NCBI RefSeq assembly: GCF_000025885.1
Contig: NC_014011.1
Coordinates: 1,178,001 to 1,242,000, forward strand
DNA: 64,000 nucleotides
Origin: Aminobacterium colombiense DSM 12261
GTDB lineage: Bacteria > Synergistota > Synergistia > Synergistales > Aminobacteriaceae
Direction of reading: 5' to 3'
A model generated the notes under the pieces. The model was not told the DNA's origin and did no database searches. It saw only the letters and a program-made list of their open reading frames with translations. Each line of letters begins with the position of its first letter. Positions within the stretch are counted from its first letter, which is position 1. This document shows positions 31,551 through 56,190 of the stretch, piece after piece. A program made the translations under genes and the position numbers.

Positions 31551-31676
31551 CGGTCTTCTCCGGGAGATCCAGCTTCCTGTGGCACCCAAAACGCTCCGCT
31601 TACTGCTGCTCCCTCCCGGGCCTGACAGGGTTCACGGTGTTTCGCCGCACAGGGCTGAATCTCCCGGAGAAGACCG
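31551..31676 (-). ncRNA. ffs: Signal recognition particle RNA (small bacterial type)
   Basis: On the minus strand the sequence GTCAGGCCCGGGAGGGAGCA matches the conserved SRP helix 8 region (GTCAGG...GGAAGGAGCAGC pattern). An 18-bp perfect closing stem joins 31551-31568 with 31659-31676. The total of about 126 bases fits the small 4.5S-like RNA, and CTTTTATA follows the 3' end. A consensus promoter precedes it. It would scaffold Ffh for co-translational targeting. The helix-8 tetraloop sits within CCCGGGAGGG. Confidence 0.9.
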
Positions 31677-46850: not shown

Positions 46851-47528
46851 TCAATTGCTTACTGCCTCTTCATCTTCTGTTGGGGGGTGTTCTGTCAATC
46901 CCCACTTCCAGGCCAGTGCGATGGCCTGGCTCTTTTCCTGCACATCCAGTTTCTTCAATATCTGGCACATATGGTTCTGTACTGTCTTGTTTGAAAGAAT
47001 CATACGCCGCCCTACCTCTCGTGAAGAAAGGCCATGGGATACCCAATAGAGAACTTCTTTTTCCTTAATTGTAAGTGTTTCAATCTTTGATTTAAATTCA
47101 GCATGGGGAGAAAAGGATTTAAGGAGCTTTGAGGCTATCAGGGGATCAACGTACCGCTCTCCGCTAGCTACCGTACGCAAGGCGTAAAGAAGCTCTGCCA
47201 AACCTGAAGATTTTAATACATACCCTTCTATCCCAGCCCTCGATACACGAGTTATCTGATTTTCAGCATCAAGGGCCGTTATAACAACAAAGGCACTTTT
47301 ACATCCTTCTTTTCGAAGAGTGGTTACCACCTCGATGCCATCGGCTCTGGGCATGCGTATATCAAGCATTACCACGTGGGGAGCGGTTTTTTTCACCACA
47401 TCTATGGCCTCAAGACCATCCCGCGCCTCACCAACAACCTCTATGTCGTCTTCCATGTCAAGAATTTTCCGGATGCTCTCCCGAAAAAGACTGTGGTCAT
47501 CGGCTAAGACAACTGTAATTTTTTTCAT
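46851..47528 (-). CDS. NarL/DegU-like response regulator
   Basis: An N-terminal receiver has Asp in VVMLDIRMPRADG and acidic LADDHS, with Lys in GYVLKSS. The C-terminal LuxR-type HTH has LTIKEKEVLYWVSHGLSSREVGRRM and NKTVQNHMCQILKKL. It has 225 residues. Its ATG overlaps the kinase stop (TAATG). Directly downstream is the Flp operon, so pilus control is the likely job. Confidence 0.93.
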   Translation of the reverse strand: MKKITVVLADDHSLFRESIRKILDMEDDIEVVGEARDGLEAIDVVKKTAPHVVMLDIRMPRADGIEVVTTLRKEGCKSAFVVITALDAENQITRVSRAGIEGYVLKSSGLAELLYALRTVASGERYVDPLIASKLLKSFSPHAEFKSKIETLTIKEKEVLYWVSHGLSSREVGRRMILSNKTVQNHMCQILKKLDVQEKSQAIALAWKWGLTEHPPTEDEEAVSN

Positions 47529-48673
47529 TACCTATCATCCTCCGGAATAGGAACACTCATTAAAATGACAGTGCCGTTGCCAGGAGAGCTATCGATAGTA
47601 AGCTTTCCTCCAAAAAGACGGAGTCGTTCTTCCATATTTGTCAGGCCGTAAGAGCCTCGTTCCTGGGCAATCGTTTTCGCCTTAGCCACATCAAAGCCCT
47701 TACCGTTATCAGCGATACGGGCGCTAAACCCATCAGACTTGGCACTGAGGCTTATATCTACTTTTTTGGCGGCGCCTCTTTGTATGGCGTTATCCAGGGC
47801 CTGATGAATAACTCTGAAAAGATTGCTTCGCAATATCATGGAGAGGCCTGTAATGTTGCCATCTGTTTGAAAAGATATATCCACGCCATATCGGTCACAA
47901 GCCTGCTTTGCATATCGTTCAAGAGCTACATCCAACCCTTCTTCAAGACCCTGTGGGTGTATCTGAAAAAGAAGGGTTCTAATATCAAAAATTGCCTCTT
48001 GCATTTGTGTTTTAACCTTACCAAGCTCTATCTGGGCTTCTTTTATTTTTCTAGCTTCTAAATATCGCTCTGCAAGCTCACAAAGCATTATGGCCCCAGA
48101 AAGCTTTTGGGCAGACCCATCGTGAAGATTGCGGGCTAAAAATCGGCTGTCAAGCTCTGCCAGGCTAAAAGCGGCAGAGAGGAGTTTTATGTTTTTTTCA
48201 GTGTCGCTGTCTGACATGGCTTTAATTCCCTGATCCTGTAAAAACTCAAGGATAAGACGAAACTTGTTTGCCATATCTTCACTTCTGCTGAGGAACTCTT
48301 TTACACCATTTTCTTCTTTTAGAAGAAAGCTTCGCTGAAGTTTCAGGTTCTGCTCGCGCTCTTGGTGAGTTGAAAGTTTTTTTCGCAACGTGTCTGCTTT
48401 TTCGTAAGCCGCGAGTTCTGCTGCGGAATCCTCTTCTTCCATGGCTTCAACAAGCTCTTGCTGGGCAGCTTTGAAGGCTGAATCAATTTTTGTTGAAGAT
48501 AGTTGAAGATAATCAATGTCTTTTTGATTGGAGTCAAGTTTTTCACGCACTTCTTTAAGTTTCAGCAACTCCTGTTGACGAATCACTGAAACATTCGACA
48601 GGTTTAACGCCACATATTTACAGACTTTATCGTAGATGCTTTTTAACTTTGCATGGAATGAATCTTCACTCAT
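47528..48673 (-). CDS. DegS-like cytoplasmic sensor histidine kinase
   Basis: There is no membrane segment. Residues about 30-150 form a long coiled coil with AAYEKADTLRKKLSTHQERE, close in pattern to the DegS sensor region. The HisKA_3 box is LARNLHDGSAQ with His184. The HATPase part has HQALDNAIQRG, IADNGKGFD and GSYGLTNMEERL. The ATG at 48673 is preferred, with GGTGGAGGAG upstream; an open frame starts six codons earlier. It has 381 residues and is co-transcribed with the response regulator. Confidence 0.93.
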   Translation of the reverse strand: MSEDSFHAKLKSIYDKVCKYVALNLSNVSVIRQQELLKLKEVREKLDSNQKDIDYLQLSSTKIDSAFKAAQQELVEAMEEEDSAAELAAYEKADTLRKKLSTHQEREQNLKLQRSFLLKEENGVKEFLSRSEDMANKFRLILEFLQDQGIKAMSDSDTEKNIKLLSAAFSLAELDSRFLARNLHDGSAQKLSGAIMLCELAERYLEARKIKEAQIELGKVKTQMQEAIFDIRTLLFQIHPQGLEEGLDVALERYAKQACDRYGVDISFQTDGNITGLSMILRSNLFRVIHQALDNAIQRGAAKKVDISLSAKSDGFSARIADNGKGFDVAKAKTIAQERGSYGLTNMEERLRLFGGKLTIDSSPGNGTVILMSVPIPEDDR

Positions 48674-48711
48674 AAAGGCTCCTCCACCCATGTAACGGGA
48701 AAATTTATCTT

Positions 48712-48856: not shown

Positions 48857-48889
48857 AAGGCTCCCATCATAGCAGATAATGGGAGCCTT
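48857..48889 (-). terminator. Terminator after the thiolase gene
   Basis: An 11-bp stem, AAGGCTCCCAT / ATGGGAGCCTT, with an 11-base loop. The T-run after it is poor (TTGTCAT), so termination may be partial. Between it and the kinase promoter the sequence is AT-rich with no gene seen. Confidence 0.6.
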
Positions 48890-48937
48890 GCGCGAGAAAT
48901 CACCTATTTATTAAATAGATGGGTTTAATTTTATTTT

Positions 48938-50122
48938 TTAATTTAAACGTTGCACCACTATAGCGGCAGCCTGCCCTCCTCCAATACACGCGCTTGCGAT
49001 TCCGAACTCTTTGTCGGTATTTTTAAGGGCATAGAGAAGGGTTGTCAAAATTCGGGCCCCCGATGCCCCTATAGGATGGCCGAGCGCAATAGCTCCGCCG
49101 TGTATGTTCAGTTTTTGCATGTCGAGGGGCATGACCCGATGACAGGCGATGATCTGGGCCGCAAAGGCTTCATTAATTTCGATAAGGTCCATATCGTTTA
49201 TGGTCATTTTTGCCATTTCCAGAGCTAAAGGCATGGCAAGGGTGGGAGCGATGCCGAAACGGTCCGCGTCAAGGGCAGCGCTGGCATACCCTAAGATTCG
49301 CGCCATAGGCGCGTGACCTTCGTTTTTCGCCCACTCTTCGTTTGCCACAACTACTGCGCTTCCCGCATCGCATAAAGCGGAACTGCTTCCGGCCGTGATC
49401 GTTCCCCCTTGTTTAAAAATGGCAGGGAGACGCCCAAGGGCTTCTATGGTGGTATCTTTTCTGGGTATTTCTTCGCTATCGATGGCAATTTCGCCTTTTT
49501 TTCGATCTCGAATGATAAGGGGGACGGTTTCTTCGGCAAAGAGTTTTTTTTCCATTGCTTCCACTGCTTTCATATGACTTGATAGAGCATATTCATCTTG
49601 TTCCTGCCTTGTAATGTTATATTCCTCAACAAGGCGCTCTGTCAGCGTTCCCATTAAATCTCCCGCCACAGGGCAAATAAATCCGTCCTGATGGAGTACA
49701 TCCAGCACCTTTTTTTCTCCCATTCGATGGCCCCATCGGGCTTCGGGGAGGAGGTAAGGCGTATTAGAGGCACTTTCCATGCCTCCAGCCACTCCGGCCT
49801 TAATGTCGCCAAGCCTTGCCCGGTCGGACATAAGCATAATGGTTCGCAAACTTGATCCGCAACGTTTATTCACTGTGAAGGCCGGTATGTTTTGAGGCAG
49901 GTTTGCCTTAACCATGGCAATACGGGCGGGGTTTGCTCCCACTCCGGCTTGCCAGCCATTCCCCATAATGACCTCTCCAATATCATCTGTAGCTATACCA
50001 GAACGCTTAACAGCTTCTGCAATGGCTTTTCCGCCCAGATCCGTTGCTTCAAAAGGTTTAAGGGAGCCGCCATATTTTCCGCCTGGAGTGCGGCAAGCGC
50101 TCAGAATAACAGCTTTTGTCAT
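48938..50122 (-). CDS. Acetyl-CoA acetyltransferase family thiolase
   Basis: Thiolases cleave 3-oxoacyl-CoA with CoA. The acyl-binding Cys is in VNKRCGSSLR, and the catalytic His and second Cys are in ALGHPIGASG and SACIGGGQ. NEAFAAQ is also typical. It has 394 residues from the ATG at 50122, which overlaps the CoA-transferase stop as ATGA; the frame is open far upstream but that region is inside the neighbouring gene. As the last gene of the TRAP/CoA-transferase unit it would give acetyl-CoA plus acyl-CoA in the degradative direction. Confidence 0.94.
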   Translation of the reverse strand: MTKAVILSACRTPGGKYGGSLKPFEATDLGGKAIAEAVKRSGIATDDIGEVIMGNGWQAGVGANPARIAMVKANLPQNIPAFTVNKRCGSSLRTIMLMSDRARLGDIKAGVAGGMESASNTPYLLPEARWGHRMGEKKVLDVLHQDGFICPVAGDLMGTLTERLVEEYNITRQEQDEYALSSHMKAVEAMEKKLFAEETVPLIIRDRKKGEIAIDSEEIPRKDTTIEALGRLPAIFKQGGTITAGSSSALCDAGSAVVVANEEWAKNEGHAPMARILGYASAALDADRFGIAPTLAMPLALEMAKMTINDMDLIEINEAFAAQIIACHRVMPLDMQKLNIHGGAIALGHPIGASGARILTTLLYALKNTDKEFGIASACIGGGQAAAIVVQRLN

Positions 50123-50820
50123 TTGGATGCCTCCTCGCACACTTCTTCTTCGGTTCCTTTCATCAAGCAAAGATCGCTGCTTACCTCTAACTCCATTCCC
50201 GTGTTGGCCAGCAATTCCTCGAGGTTTACACCAGGGGCTATTTCTGTTAAAACCATCCGTCCACTTTGTTTTCGAACAACACAGTATTCTGTAACTATGG
50301 TAGAAACAACCCCGGCGCCAGTAAGGGGAAGAGAGCATTTCTTGACGAGCTTGGGCCGGCCTTTTTTATCAGTGTGGGTTGTAGCAACGTAGACAGCTCT
50401 GGCACCAGTGACAAGGTCCATGGCGCCTCCCATTCCGGGAACCAGCTTGCCAGGAATCCACCAGTTTGCCAGATTCCCCTCCTGATCCACCTCCAGAGCG
50501 CCGAGTACCGTAGCATCCAGATGGCCTCCGCGAATGAGGCCAAAGCTGACTTCACTCGCCACAATAGAAGAACCGTCGATAAGGCTGAGGCCCCGTCCGC
50601 CTGCGCCAATGAAGCGCAGATCAGGCTCTTCTGGAGAGGGGCCTGCTCCAACTACACCGTTTTCAGTCTGCATGATGACCCGTACATTGTCAGGAATATA
50701 ATCTGAAACGAGTGTTGGAATACCTATGCCCAGATTGACAACCGCGCCGTTATCGAAATCAAGGGCTATCCGCTTGGCAATTCGTTCCCGTACAATCTTT
50801 TCATCAAGTTCTGGAAGCAT
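50119..50820 (-). CDS. 3-oxoacid CoA-transferase subunit B
   Basis: The catalytic Glu lies in VIMQTENGVVGAGP. NLGIGIPTLVSDYI at the N-terminus and GALEVDQEGNLANWWIPGK are family blocks. It moves CoA from acetyl-CoA or succinyl-CoA to a 3-oxoacid such as acetoacetate. ATG at 50820 has AAGGAG nine bases upstream; an ATG three codons earlier touches the SD. It overlaps subunit A. About 233 residues. Confidence 0.92.
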   Translation of the reverse strand: MLPELDEKIVRERIAKRIALDFDNGAVVNLGIGIPTLVSDYIPDNVRVIMQTENGVVGAGPSPEEPDLRFIGAGGRGLSLIDGSSIVASEVSFGLIRGGHLDATVLGALEVDQEGNLANWWIPGKLVPGMGGAMDLVTGARAVYVATTHTDKKGRPKLVKKCSLPLTGAGVVSTIVTEYCVVRKQSGRMVLTEIAPGVNLEELLANTGMELEVSSDLCLMKGTEEEVCEEASK

Positions 50821-51511
50821 AGTATCCATCTCCTTTCAGCACAAGGATATCTATGAGGATTCCAGGAGTAACTACGTCATTGGGATCTATTTCACCCTCA
50901 CGCACAATGGAATCAACTTCTGCTATAACAATGTCCGCGGCCGTAGCCATAGCCGGGTTGAAGTTCCTGTTCGTTCCAAAATAGGTCAAATTCCCCCATC
51001 TGTCTGCCTTGTAAGCACGAATAAAAGCTATGTCGGCACGCAGCGGAAGCTCAAGAATATATTTTTTCCCCTCCACTTCTATTGTTTGCTTGCCTTCTTC
51101 ATAACATGTGCCGACACCCGTCGGCGTCAGAATGCCTCCCAGGCCAAACCCACCAGCACGAATGCGCTCTACAAAACTTCCCTGAGGGACAAGCTCAAGT
51201 TCCATTTTGTCTTCGTTGAAAAGGCGCTGGGTTTCCCTGTTGAGCCCAATGTGAGAAGCGGTTACTTTACGCACCTGGCCATTAACTACAAGTTTGCCGT
51301 GTCCCACTCCTTGGGGAAATTTATCGTTGGCATATAAGGTATCGTTGGCTATGAGATGCAAGTCCCGCACATCAGCAGCAACCAGGGCATCAACCAGAGT
51401 GTAAGGCACACCACCATAGTTGAATCCGCCGACCATCAAAGAGGCGCCTGGCTTGACAAAACGAACTGCTTCTTCTGCCGACATAACAGGTTTAATGGTT
51501 TTTTTGGGCAT
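50804..51511 (-). CDS. 3-oxoacid CoA-transferase subunit A
   Basis: Family blocks are LMVGGFNYGGVPYTLVDAL (CoA-binding glycine loop), FVERIRAGGFGLGGILTPTGVGT and ADIAFIRAYKADRWGNLTY. It pairs with subunit B. The ATG at 51511 has GGGAGG upstream; the frame is open another 29 codons into the permease gene but without an SD. The start lies 20 bases after the permease stop. 235 residues. Confidence 0.93.
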   Translation of the reverse strand: MPKKTIKPVMSAEEAVRFVKPGASLMVGGFNYGGVPYTLVDALVAADVRDLHLIANDTLYANDKFPQGVGHGKLVVNGQVRKVTASHIGLNRETQRLFNEDKMELELVPQGSFVERIRAGGFGLGGILTPTGVGTCYEEGKQTIEVEGKKYILELPLRADIAFIRAYKADRWGNLTYFGTNRNFNPAMATAADIVIAEVDSIVREGEIDPNDVVTPGILIDILVLKGDGYYASRT

Positions 51512-51530
51512 TTGCCGAACCTCCCTTTCA

Positions 51531-53477
51531 TTATTGTTCCGGATTTTCTTCGAGCACGGGAGAGACAACTTGTGCTGCTCTTCGTTTCTGTATAACAAAC
51601 ATAAGCGCTATAATTCCCACGGCTAAACAATTCGATATAAGAGAAGGATGGATCAGCAGCAATGGAACCGAAAGAAGAGCCGCCCGCCCCCAGAGGGCAA
51701 GATGGGTAACAAAAAACCCCTGAACGCCTGCCGCCAATCCAATGATTCCCAAAAAGGCCGTAGCGCAGCCCAAAACAATTTTGATTAAACTGCCCTGAAA
51801 GAGAAGATAGCTGTTATACACAAACATATAGGGAACTATAAAACCTGCGACAGCAACGACAAGGGCCGTAAATCCAGTTTTAATGGCATTGGAACGGGCA
51901 ATACCCGCCGCGGCATAAGTGGCAAGGGCGACAGGGGGTGTCACGTCTGCCAGTACTCCAAAGTATAGGCAGAATAGGTGGGCAGACATCATGGGAACGC
52001 CCATTTGAGCCAATGCCGGCGCTGCCAGAGTCGATGTAATAATGTACTGGGCAGTGGTAGGCACACCCATGCCAAGGATAATTGAGCCGATCATGGTTAA
52101 GACAAGGGCCAGAGGAAGTATCCCATGGGATAGGCTCATGACAAATGATGAAAATGCTAGACCTACACCGGTGATCCCGATAACGCCAATGACTATTCCT
52201 GAACAGGCACAGGCTGCCGCAACATCAACAGCTCCGATGGCCCCATCAATAAGTGAGTTGAGAACTCGTTTGGGAGTCATACGGTATTTTTCATCTCCTA
52301 ACCATGATGCTCCGACAAGACAGACGATAGACCAGAAAACTGCTTTTACCGCGGAATACCCAGTGGCAAGAAAAAGGACAAGGGTAATGATAGGAATTAG
52401 CAGATGCCAGCCTTCCCGCAATACAGGCCCTATTTTGGGAACTTCTTCATCGGTCATGGCCCTGATTCCTCTTTTGCCGGCTCTGAAGTGAACCATAGCC
52501 CATATGGAAAAAAAGTATAGTGCCGCAGGAATAGCCGCGGCTATAACAATATCCCAATAGGAAATGCCTAAGAACTGGGCCATAATAAAGGCCGCCGCTC
52601 CCATAACGGGAGGCATAACTTGTCCTCCAGTAGAGGCTGCCGCAACTATGGCGCCTGCAAACTCAGACCGATATCCGGCCGTCTTCATGAGAGGTATGGT
52701 AAAAGCACCAGTCGTAACGGTGTTAGCTACAGAACTGCCGGAAACGGTTCCCATAAGAGCACTGGCAACAACTGCCGCCTTGGCAGGGCCGCCACGGCTT
52801 TTTCCTGTTAGGGCGATGGAGAGGTCAATAAAAAATTGCCCCGCCCCGGAAACGCTAAGAACCGCTCCAAACAAAACAAAAAGGAATATAAAGGAGGCAG
52901 ATACCCCCAGGGGAACACCAAATATTCCGTCAGTGCGCAAATACTGAAAAGGAGCTATTTCATCAAGGGCAAATCCGCCATGGGACAGGATGCCTGGAAA
53001 ATAGGGACCAAGAAAAGCATATGCCAGCGCAATCGTAGCCATGATAGGCAAGGGCAGCCCCATAGCTCTTCTTGTTCCTTCAAGAACAAGCAAGATCATA
53101 ATAGTGCCCCAATATATATCTGAGGTTATTGGTGCTCCCTCCCTCATGGTAATGACTTCCCAGTTAAGAATAATATTGAGACATCCTGCTATAAGCAGCC
53201 CGGCGAAAACCCAGTCCCACCAATCAATGCGATTCTTAGGCCTGTTTTTACTCACTGGATATAGAAGGAACATAAGCCCTCCCATAAAGAGCCAGTGGAT
53301 GCTTCGCTGGTACATTGCTGAACGCAACCCAAAAACAGCCGTATAGAGGTGAAAAACAGATGCCGACAAGGCCAGAGCAGCTACAATCCAATACTGCCAG
53401 CCATGGAGTTCTCTTTTCTTCGCATCCACATCTACTGGCTGAACATCCTGCGACGTTGATGTTGAAGAATTCGTCAT
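51531..53477 (-). CDS. TRAP transporter fused permease (4TM-12TM, TAXI type)
   Basis: This sodium-driven secondary importer works with an extracytoplasmic TAXI receptor. It has 648 residues and about 16-18 hydrophobic segments. The large-subunit signature is seen in GTVSGSSVANTVTTGAFTIP, GGQVMPPVMGAAAF and GMGVPTTAQYIITS, then DVTPPVALATYAAAGIA. The receptor gene lies directly upstream, and CoA-transferase genes directly downstream on the same strand. Confidence 0.95.
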   Translation of the reverse strand: MTNSSTSTSQDVQPVDVDAKKRELHGWQYWIVAALALSASVFHLYTAVFGLRSAMYQRSIHWLFMGGLMFLLYPVSKNRPKNRIDWWDWVFAGLLIAGCLNIILNWEVITMREGAPITSDIYWGTIMILLVLEGTRRAMGLPLPIMATIALAYAFLGPYFPGILSHGGFALDEIAPFQYLRTDGIFGVPLGVSASFIFLFVLFGAVLSVSGAGQFFIDLSIALTGKSRGGPAKAAVVASALMGTVSGSSVANTVTTGAFTIPLMKTAGYRSEFAGAIVAAASTGGQVMPPVMGAAAFIMAQFLGISYWDIVIAAAIPAALYFFSIWAMVHFRAGKRGIRAMTDEEVPKIGPVLREGWHLLIPIITLVLFLATGYSAVKAVFWSIVCLVGASWLGDEKYRMTPKRVLNSLIDGAIGAVDVAAACACSGIVIGVIGITGVGLAFSSFVMSLSHGILPLALVLTMIGSIILGMGVPTTAQYIITSTLAAPALAQMGVPMMSAHLFCLYFGVLADVTPPVALATYAAAGIARSNAIKTGFTALVVAVAGFIVPYMFVYNSYLLFQGSLIKIVLGCATAFLGIIGLAAGVQGFFVTHLALWGRAALLSVPLLLIHPSLISNCLAVGIIALMFVIQKRRAAQVVSPVLEENPEQ

Positions 53478-53516
53478 TGAGTTTCCCTCCCCAATTTCGT
53501 CTCATTGATGCGGGAG

Positions 53517-53627
53517 AGGTTAACCTCTCCCGCTCAAAAGAGACTTATTTCACCGTTACTGGCCCTGTAGATGTTAACGCCCGGCCAGGAGGTTAACCTC
53601 TCCCGCTCAAAAGAGACTTATTTCACC
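53517..53627. repeat. 73-bp-offset direct repeat at the receptor-permease junction
   Basis: A 38-base sequence at 53517-53554 is repeated exactly at 53590-53627. It starts AGGTTAACCTCTCCCGC and includes the receptor stop codon in the second copy. The first copy lies in a perfect 24-base palindrome (53510-53533) centred on GGTTAACC. The hairpin may protect the 3' end of the receptor mRNA; the duplication looks recent. Confidence 0.9.
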
Positions 53628-54573
53628 TCTATGCCTTTTTCCTTGAAGAATTTCACCGATCCTGTTGTAAAGGGTATTATTCCCACACTGGCCTCTTCGG
53701 GTACAAAGTGAGCAGCCTGCTGTGTAATATCCATAAATGCCTTATTATTCTCTATAATTGTTTTTACAAGGTTGTACCCAAGCTCTTCTGGCATATCCTC
53801 GTGAACCACAAGGAAGTTGCCATCAGCAACTGTGAGAATATCTTCTTTAATATCAGGATAGGTGCCTTTAGTTATGATATAGGGGAAGAGGAAAGGATTC
53901 TTTTCCACAACTTTATCTACCACTTCCTTAGGAAGGGGAATCATTACAATATCACGAACTGCTGCTACTTCAAGAACGGCCGCCGAACCGGGAGCCGCAA
54001 AGTTCCAGAAGACTGCGTCAACGTTTCCGTCCTTCAGCGCCATAACTCCTTCCGGCTGGGTCAGCTGCTGTTTATGAATGTCTTTATCTGGGTCTATGCC
54101 TGCCGCGTTCAAAATAATATGGCTCAATATCTGATCACCGCCGCCTGGAGCTCCCAGAGAAACTTTTTTCCCCTTTATGTCTTCAAAGGACTTAATACCG
54201 GTTTTAGTCGTGGTCACAAGATGCTGGGGGGCAGGATACATATGCATAAGAATGCGAAGAGGAAGTTTGCCATCCTGCTCAAAAGCTTCTACGCCCGTAT
54301 GGCCTGATACAAAGTGGAGCCCATAGACATGCCTATTTGGGCCTTTCCTGAAGCTACAAGGCGGCAGTTCTCTTTAGAAGCTGCCGTTGAACGAGAGGTC
54401 GCCTTGACACCAATATCGGCCTTTGACAAAATTTCTGCCATGGCCCCGCCCAGAGGGTAGTATGTTCCTCCCACTCCGCCTGACCCAATAGTGACAAAGG
54501 TGACAGCCGCAGCTGCCGAGCCAAATGCCACGAGAGCCAGAACCGCTACCAAGACCAACCATTTTTTCTTCAT
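53618..54573 (-). pseudogene. TAXI-family TRAP receptor with a frameshift
   Basis: A signal peptide (MKKKWLVLVAVLALVAFGSA) is followed by TFVTIGSGGVGGTYYPLGGAMAE, the TAXI start. The first frame stops at about 54289 after GSTLYQAIRA. The other frame continues with VEAFEQDGKLPLRIL and LVTTTKTGIKSFEDIKGKKVSLGAPGGGDQ to the end. One missing C in GCCA at about 54302 (GCC CAT expected) would join them to about 318 residues, normal for TAXI. Either real decay or an assembly error; the permease and enzymes around it are intact. SD AAGGAGGG. Confidence 0.9.
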
Positions 54574-54608
54574 ATAAGGACCCTCCTTTTACTTGGTTCA
54601 CTCCACTC

Positions 54609-55958
54609 TTATTTCCCAGACAGCAATTTATCGCTTGCTGACCTCAGCCCTCTTTCTAGACGCATAAAGATTTCGTCGATCTCACTCTCTGTAACAGTAA
54701 GAGGAGGAGCCACCAGGAACTGGTCTCCCTCTATTCCATCGATTTGTCCCCGGCCGGGGTAAATCACAAGCCCTTCCTTGAAACATTCGCCTGTAACTAC
54801 GCCAGCCGCATTTACAGAAGTGGAAAAAGCTTCTTTGGTACTCTGGTTCGCCACGATTTCAATTCCTCTCATAAGACCCATTCCGCGAACTTCACCAACG
54901 ATGGGTATTTGATACAGTGTCTCTAGTTTTTTGTAGAACCGCTCTCCCTGTAAAGCTGCATTTTCAACAAGTTTTTCCCGTTTGATCAAACGGAGGGTTG
55001 CAGTTACAGCTGCGGCAGTTACCGGGTTCGCGTTGTAGGTATGACCATGCTGAAAAGCTCCGCTGCCTTTTTTTAGAGATTCAACAATTTCATCTTTTGC
55101 TATAAGGGCGCCTACCGGGGAGTACCCTCCAGATAAGGCCTTTGCGGAACAAATCATGTCTGGCGTCACATTCCAATGGTTCAGGCAGAAATTTTTACCA
55201 GTGCGGCCTATACCCGTCATAATTTCATCGGCAATAAGCAGCACATCGTATCTGGAACAAATATCCCTAACGATGGGCCAATATTCTTTTGGCGGGTGCA
55301 AGGCGCCAACGGTGGAGCCAACAATGGGTTCAGCCACAAAAGCTGCCACATATTGTTGCCCTATTCTTCTTATTTCATGTTCCAGGGCATGGGCACACCT
55401 AAGATCACAGGAAGGGTAAGAAAGACCATAGGGGCATCGGTAGCAATAATGGGATGCTATTTTGGGATGATCCTGATAGAGCGGAAAGAACGTTCTTCGC
55501 CGAGCCATGCTGCCTGCTAATCCCATAGTTCCAATAGTACTCCCATGATAGGAGTTCCAACGGGCTATCATGACATACTTAGAAGAGCCCTCTCCATCCC
55601 GCTCCACAAAATATTGTCTGGCCAGCTTCAAAGCAGATTCAATGGCTTCGCTTCCGCCGCTGACGAGCCAGACATAGTTGAGCCCGTCAGGGGTAATAGA
55701 CGCTACTTCTTTTGACGCTTCCATGGTCGCATCGTTATACCATCGGGAAGGGTGGGCAAACTCAAGAGTTGTAAGCTGTTTGTATATAGCGTCAGCTATC
55801 TCTTTATTGCCATGCCCCACGCTCGAAAGCAACGCCCCGCAGCAGCCATCGATATAGGCTTTACCTTCTTCATCGAAGAGGTACATCCCTTCACCTCGAA
55901 CTGCCTTTCTGAGGGCCGTTTTGTAGCTACGAGGAATCATAGGCCCATATTCCGGCAC
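54609..55958 (-). CDS. Class III PLP aminotransferase, probably omega- or beta-amino acid:2-oxoacid
   Basis: Fold type I class III motifs are DEEGKAYIDGCCGALLSSVGHG, VSGGSEAIESALKLARQ, the PLP-Asp block LLIADEIMTGIGRTG and the PLP-Lys in CSAKALSGGYSPVGA. A Cys-rich insert YCYRCPYGLSYPSCDLRCA (four Cys) lies in the middle. GTG at 55958 is eight bases from GAGGGG; an ATG three codons earlier overlaps the SD. About 449 residues. Being first in a unit with importer, CoA-transferase and thiolase, it likely makes the 3-oxoacid the next enzymes use (inference). Confidence 0.9.
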   Translation of the reverse strand: MPEYGPMIPRSYKTALRKAVRGEGMYLFDEEGKAYIDGCCGALLSSVGHGNKEIADAIYKQLTTLEFAHPSRWYNDATMEASKEVASITPDGLNYVWLVSGGSEAIESALKLARQYFVERDGEGSSKYVMIARWNSYHGSTIGTMGLAGSMARRRTFFPLYQDHPKIASHYCYRCPYGLSYPSCDLRCAHALEHEIRRIGQQYVAAFVAEPIVGSTVGALHPPKEYWPIVRDICSRYDVLLIADEIMTGIGRTGKNFCLNHWNVTPDMICSAKALSGGYSPVGALIAKDEIVESLKKGSGAFQHGHTYNANPVTAAAVTATLRLIKREKLVENAALQGERFYKKLETLYQIPIVGEVRGMGLMRGIEIVANQSTKEAFSTSVNAAGVVTGECFKEGLVIYPGRGQIDGIEGDQFLVAPPLTVTESEIDEIFMRLERGLRSASDKLLSGK

Positions 55959-56161
55959 ACAAACCATCCCCTCTCTGTTTTTTAAATTACTCTCGCAGGA
56001 TCTCTGTTGTAGTCCGGCCGGAACCCACAGAGAAAAAGCCTTATGGTTACAATTGACATTCGATGAGGCAGAAGGAAGGGAGCATAATGGATAACGGATA
56101 ATGGATAAAAAAGAAGTGCGAACTACTTTCATGTTATTGTTATGAAGTTTTGCCTTCGTCA

Positions 56162-56190
56162 ATAATAGAGTCTTCTTTATAGTTTGTCAA
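56162..56190 (-). promoter_or_regulatory. Promoter of the aminotransferase-TRAP-CoA-transferase unit
   Basis: TTGACA (56190-56185), 17-base spacer, TATTAT (56167-56162) on the minus strand. The leader of about 195 bases before the aminotransferase contains ATGGATAA-type short direct repeats near 56088-56110 but no riboswitch I recognise. Confidence 0.75.

Follow-up and report, generated by a model that had tools for sequence, protein, structure and literature searches.

The window, a stretch of 64,000 nt covering positions 1,178,001-1,242,000 of the 1,980,592-bp chromosome of Aminobacterium colombiense DSM 12261, carries six gene regions on the minus strand in the order class III aminotransferase (AT), TAXI-family TRAP solute receptor (TAXI), fused TRAP permease, 3-oxoacid CoA-transferase subunits A (CTA) and B (CTB) and thiolase (THL). 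The host is an amino acid specialist of the Synergistota; A. colombiense ALA-1 is a strict anaerobe which ferments amino acids, several of which are oxidised only in the presence of a hydrogen-consuming methanogen (PMC3035294). A sigma-70-like promoter (TTGACA-17-TATTAT; 56162..56190, minus strand), which agrees at 11/12 positions and both hexamers of which are kept in two congeners, precedes the genes, so that coordinates and hexamers bear out the description in an earlier note on this DNA of a promoter followed by six genes on one strand in this order. The gene family names given there are equally matched by Pfam and NCBIfam, the assignments of which agree for all six genes. With gaps of 35 nt between AT and TAXI, 140 nt between TAXI and the TRAP permease and 19 nt between the permease and CTA, and with CTA/CTB and CTB/THL overlapping, the spacing makes co-transcription of the six genes likely, and all six are under purifying selection within the genus (pN/pS 0.08-0.14).

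The leader harbours an inverted repeat, CTCTGTGGGTTCCGGCCGGACTACAACAGAG, approximately 35 nt upstream of the AT start (56002..56032, minus strand), with a core kept in the genus and a single exact match within the window, which is a possible operator or leader hairpin. A role as a phylum-wide operator was discarded as the palindrome was not found upstream of AT outside the genus, as was a riboswitch, Rfam having given no match in the leader. A terminator-like hairpin with a weak T run is located 3' of the thiolase gene (48857..48890, minus strand). Further downstream, the same strand carries genes for a histidine kinase and a response regulator (window 46851-48691), which are kept in the genus; the histidine kinase gene evolves faster than the operon genes (pN/pS 0.30-0.33). 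Elsewhere in the window, a bacterial small SRP RNA is encoded at 31563-31661.

The AT gene (54609..55967, minus strand; ATG start after GAGAGGGG) encodes a protein of 452 aa, 88% and 86% identical to its congener counterparts, which is assigned to PF00202 with 295 bits against a cut-off of 30.5 and in which K276, the PLP lysine, is invariant in the alignment of the AT set. Within class III, the protein stays under the cut-off of every NCBIfam equivalog, including the YodT-type PRK06917 (NF005375; 464 bits against a curated cut-off of 535, which is exceeded by one control genome) and PRK07483 (NF005685; 466.5 against 485). A close relative of solved structure is the Deinococcus protein 3I4J, while omega-transaminases are numerous among the class III relatives of known structure. 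In the tree, the Synergistota ATs separate from the Pseudomonadota ATs (support 100/100). Nearly all Synergistota members possess C-x2-C and C-x3-C cysteines (CYRCPYGLSYPSCDLRC) at AT residues ~174-190, a possible metal site as judged from the sequence motif, which are absent from the Pseudomonadota relatives.

At the distal end, CTA (TIGR02429; 50804..51511, minus strand), assigned by NCBIfam and Pfam, and CTB (TIGR02428; 50119..50829, minus strand) both score over their cut-offs (TIGR02428/TIGR02429: 272.4 against 243.55 and 214.3 against 128.5). The CTB motif TENGVVGAGP aligns with SENGCIGVGP of 8k9h with the glutamate present, and the glutamate of ENGVVG is the catalytic residue of the CoA-transferase. 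The nearest solved chain of CTB is the subunit B of a butyrate-acetoacetate CoA-transferase. THL (TIGR01930, 415.8 against 240.55; 48938..50122, minus strand) displays the Cys, His and Cys motifs usual for the active site and has acetyl-CoA acetyltransferases as nearest solved chains, a likeness that does not prove specificity for acetoacetyl-CoA. The genome codes for a single PF01144 pair and a single full thiolase, both inside the operon, which speaks for the proposed path. As among solved chains the CoA-transferase and the thiolase are most like enzymes of acetoacetate metabolism, a route through a 3-oxoacid is favoured.

The TRAP permease of 648 aa (51531..53477, minus strand), assigned by NCBIfam and Pfam, matches TIGR02123 with 702.6 against a cut-off of 320.65. 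The intergenic stretch that separates its gene from TAXI (53478..53617, minus strand) folds into a strong hairpin, with shorter hairpins at the equivalent place in both congeners, and a 39-nt direct repeat (window 53499-53627) duplicates the TAXI 3' end; with these two features in the gap, equal expression of the six genes is not a given. The TAXI gene itself (53618..54573, minus strand) is frameshifted. It is split into an open reading frame of 94 aa (54573-54289) and, in a different frame, one of 209 aa (54247-53618), as one base is missing between 54300 and 54301, a site outside any homopolymer that was located by alignment with the intact genes of the two congeners (L087 and L088). The receptor gene, which the earlier note had taken to be intact, thus carries a single-base deletion in DSM 12261 compared to both congeners, and neither can the import step proposed there be regarded as intact in this strain. 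The TAXI codons on either side of the break show a pN/pS of 0.08-0.11 like the other operon genes and hence no relaxed selection, which means that the frame was selected until recently or that the missing base is a sequencing error. Unless the latter is the case, it is doubtful whether this TRAP transporter takes up its substrate in DSM 12261. Seven further TAXI receptors over the cut-off are encoded in the genome, any of which might stand in for the broken receptor.

The ligand site of the receptor can be compared with the TAXI glutamate receptors VcGluP and TtGluBP, members of the same family; in VcGluP, the amino group of glutamate is bound by Tyr45, Gln93 and Glu125 (PMC11574862). In an alignment of 35 Synergistota TAXI proteins, the positions of Tyr45, Ser75 and Gly156 are kept, while Gln93 is replaced by Met in 34/35 and Glu125 by Ala in 35/35 proteins and Asn and Tyr occupy the positions of Met201 and His123. 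With the tyrosine retained but the glutamine and glutamate replaced, this set is not of the VcGluP glutamate type. The site is uniform across the Synergistota, and its polarity is lower than that of the glutamate site, so that these residues predict neither glutamate nor a similar dicarboxylate as a likely ligand; with the amino-group-binding side chains of VcGluP missing, the transporter may even import something other than an amino acid.

The search for the same gene set in other genomes, which the earlier note had proposed as a check, recovered it widely. AT is present in 66/188 Synergistota genomes (E < 1e-100), and six genes in identical order were found in 29/47 Synergistota loci read, from many families, with several of the loci without the full set being cut by contig ends. 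The recurrence of this order across the phylum is beyond chance. An RpiR-family regulator accompanies 39/47 loci, but is absent at the Aminobacterium locus. Among the variants, one locus (L107) has all six genes in a different order, L119 and L120 possess AT-CTA-CTB-THL without TRAP genes and L108 and L109 have AT-CTA-CTB only, while a paralogous THL2-CTA2-CTB2 set is found with an SSF symporter at L099 and L105/L106 and with two ATs and a DctQMP TRAP system at L110. Thus, the enzyme set is the constant and the importer the variable part of the locus. At L099, L105/L106, L110, L112 and L124, a second AT of ~42-49% identity accompanies the paralogous thiolase/CoA-transferase genes, and the importer is either an SSF symporter or a DctPQM TRAP system. 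Relatives of AT also occur without a CoA-transferase beside IlvD-type or hydroxyisobutyrate-dehydrogenase-like genes or peptidases (L117, L123, L115), and consequently the specificity of AT may vary. At L117 and L123, the related ATs have a dehydratase of the IlvD/Edd type and 3-hydroxyisobutyrate-dehydrogenase-like genes as neighbours, a setting that suggests another pathway.

Outside the phylum, Pseudomonadota ATs ~40-42% identical to the operon AT have a PF05853 gene (DUF849, the beta-keto acid cleavage family) as neighbour in 18/39 loci. The AT gene overlaps or adjoins the PF05853 gene in Rhodobacterales, a Rhizobiales MAG and a Thiotrichaceae MAG, accompanied by RpiR and often TAXI-TRAP, and the pair resides also on Alloyangia and Paracoccus plasmids, in one case with an amino acid ABC transporter. 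AT together with a DUF849/BKACE-family gene was seen at L036, L038-L041, L046, L048, L051-L060 and L067 as well as L157, L160 and L161, again with RpiR and often with a glutamate-type TAXI-TRAP. The adjacency of DUF849 genes makes a 3-oxoacid the better reading of the AT product. The residues His46, His48 and Glu230, the zinc ligands of Kce, and Tyr145, the roles of which are transferred by equivalence (PMC12871164), are present in 20/20 DUF849 partners. Asp231, on the other hand, is replaced by Asn and Glu143 by Ile in 20/20. As these two residues, which are catalytic in Kce, are replaced, the reaction of the partners is uncertain and true cleavage activity may be lacking. Indeed, the DUF849 family includes non-cleavage members, some with decarboxylation activity (PMC4922564). 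With these Kce residues missing, the DUF849 partners support a keto-acid product but were not taken to prove it firmly. At the Rhodobacterales loci, Tyr, Ser, Gln, His and Glu are all retained in the TAXI site, and an arginine is found at the Kce Glu14 position in 19/20 partners; these features would fit an acidic substrate such as beta-glutamate, of which the DUF849-linked loci could be the catabolic genes.

In the genome of DSM 12261, the sole aldehyde-dehydrogenase homologue is ProA, encoded beside ProB and named by sequence and gene order, which leaves a semialdehyde product without obvious follow-up oxidase and argues against a semialdehyde route. KamA-family genes over the cut-off are found in 43/188 Synergistota genomes, and AT is present in 31/43 KamA genomes compared to 35/145 without KamA (Fisher p 3e-8, with no correction for kinship). 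A link with lysine 2,3-aminomutase was nevertheless dismissed, as the operon loci showed no adjacent KamA gene. The KamA gene of the genome (L137:7376-11342, genome 182000-198000) has as neighbours one GNAT gene and two ATP-grasp genes that are D-Ala-D-Ala-ligase-like, so that an internal supply of beta-lysine is not supported; a similar arrangement of KamA, ATP-grasp and GNAT genes occurs in other Synergistota.

On balance, the operon probably serves the breakdown of a beta-amino acid, a reading favoured by the conserved unit, the enzymes that stay together with differing importers, the occurrence of ProA only and the DUF849-linked relatives; we infer the direction of the path, the beta position of the amino group and the substrate. 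The substrate would be imported by the TAXI-TRAP transporter, upon which AT would transaminate it at the 3-position, with a 2-oxoacid as acceptor, and release a free 3-oxoacid. CTA/CTB would activate the 3-oxoacid to the 3-oxoacyl-CoA with the CoA derived from an acyl-CoA such as acetyl-CoA, and THL with free CoA would split the product into acetyl-CoA and an acyl-CoA two carbons shorter. Of the course proposed in the earlier note, transamination to a 3-oxoacid, CoA transfer and thiolysis are supported, as deduced from conservation and context, but not the importer as an intact component of this strain. Nor does any evidence single out 3-aminobutyrate, the example given there, which would yield two acetyl-CoA; it is one candidate beside beta-leucine or another monocarboxylic beta-amino acid. 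As its product would be acetoacetate, 3-aminobutyrate would make beta-keto acid cleavage pointless in the DUF849-linked relatives.

The same genes can be read differently. That acetoacetate or another carboxylic acid without amino group is imported, with AT as a nitrogen side branch, is rather unlikely; the Met and Ala at the VcGluP Gln93 and Glu125 positions of the Synergistota TAXI set fit such a ligand and CoA-transferase and thiolase by themselves constitute an ato-like path, yet AT is the first gene and most constant partner, which stays with the CoA-transferase even where TRAP is missing (L108, L109, L119, L120). The gene set is equally compatible with a reversed order of steps, in which the CoA-transferase makes a beta-aminoacyl-CoA and AT acts on the ester, converting for instance 3-aminobutyryl-CoA to acetoacetyl-CoA prior to thiolysis, as there is precedent in Kat, a class III enzyme of lysine fermenters that uses only CoA esters (PMC3149608). 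We regard this order as unlikely, since Kat is described as HemL-like and thus of a different class III branch, the operon CoA-transferase resembles 3-oxoacid enzymes and the AT relatives beside PF05853 imply a free keto acid, provided PF05853 proteins act on keto acids.

The abundance of omega-transaminases among the solved class III relatives would suit an AT for a gamma- or omega-amino acid of the GABA, 5-aminovalerate or putrescine type, with CoA-transferase and thiolase as a separate short-chain acid path in one transcription unit. With ProA as the only aldehyde-dehydrogenase homologue of the genome and AT kept with the CoA-transferase even after loss of transporter or thiolase, this assignment is unlikely. 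Transaminases, CoA-transferases and thiolases are reversible enzymes, and a beta-amino acid could in principle be made from acetyl-CoA, but TRAP systems import and thiolase condensation is unfavourable. As the host moreover ferments amino acids (PMC3035294), the biosynthetic direction is highly improbable.

Beyond the single operon, the beta-amino acid path might represent a phylum-wide Synergistota fermentation module with fixed enzymes and swappable importers (TAXI-TRAP, DctPQM TRAP, SSF or none), an undescribed class of TAXI ligand and substrates released in anaerobic communities, a generalization that we put forward tentatively. Beta-amino acids occur as osmolytes and aminomutase products, and to our knowledge their use by anaerobes is poorly known. 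With the lead enzyme in about one-third of the Synergistota genomes searched, the operon puts forward a specific route that can be put to the test and could supply transaminases for beta-amino acids; it would also provide a ligand class for a TAXI group distinct from the glutamate receptors. Should the substrate be ordinary, the outcome is a routine gain in annotation. Each component of the operon is of an ordinary kind, but their combination has apparently not been described; the earlier note knew of no operon in which TRAP import is coupled to this path, and this is uncontradicted in the open literature, where no paper on such an operon was found, with most subscription papers outside the search.

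Among the closest known systems is the Bacillus subtilis yodT-yodS-yodR operon, with yodQ, yodP and kamA, which is believed to degrade beta-lysine and which combines a class III aminotransferase with a two-subunit CoA-transferase as in the A. colombiense operon. For YodT and the operon AT alike, Deinococcus 3I4J is a close solved relative, but yodTSR is not known to include TRAP genes and the operon AT remains below the PRK06917 cut-off; YodT is itself uncharacterised (PMC6522883). The class III 3-aminobutyryl-CoA aminotransferase Kat leads, as the operon path would, to acetoacetyl-CoA and a thiolase, but in contrast to the operon AT its gene is linked to lysine fermentation genes (PMC3149608). 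The Escherichia coli ato operon, in which the CoA-transferase AtoDA and the thiolase AtoB convert acetoacetate to acetyl-CoA, covers the last two steps without an aminotransferase and without a TRAP transporter. In the DUF849-linked loci of Rhodobacterales (Shimia, Paracoccus), finally, a related AT of ~42% identity with an RpiR regulator and often a TAXI-TRAP transporter is retained, whereas the DUF849 gene replaces CoA-transferase and thiolase and the TAXI site is of the glutamate type.
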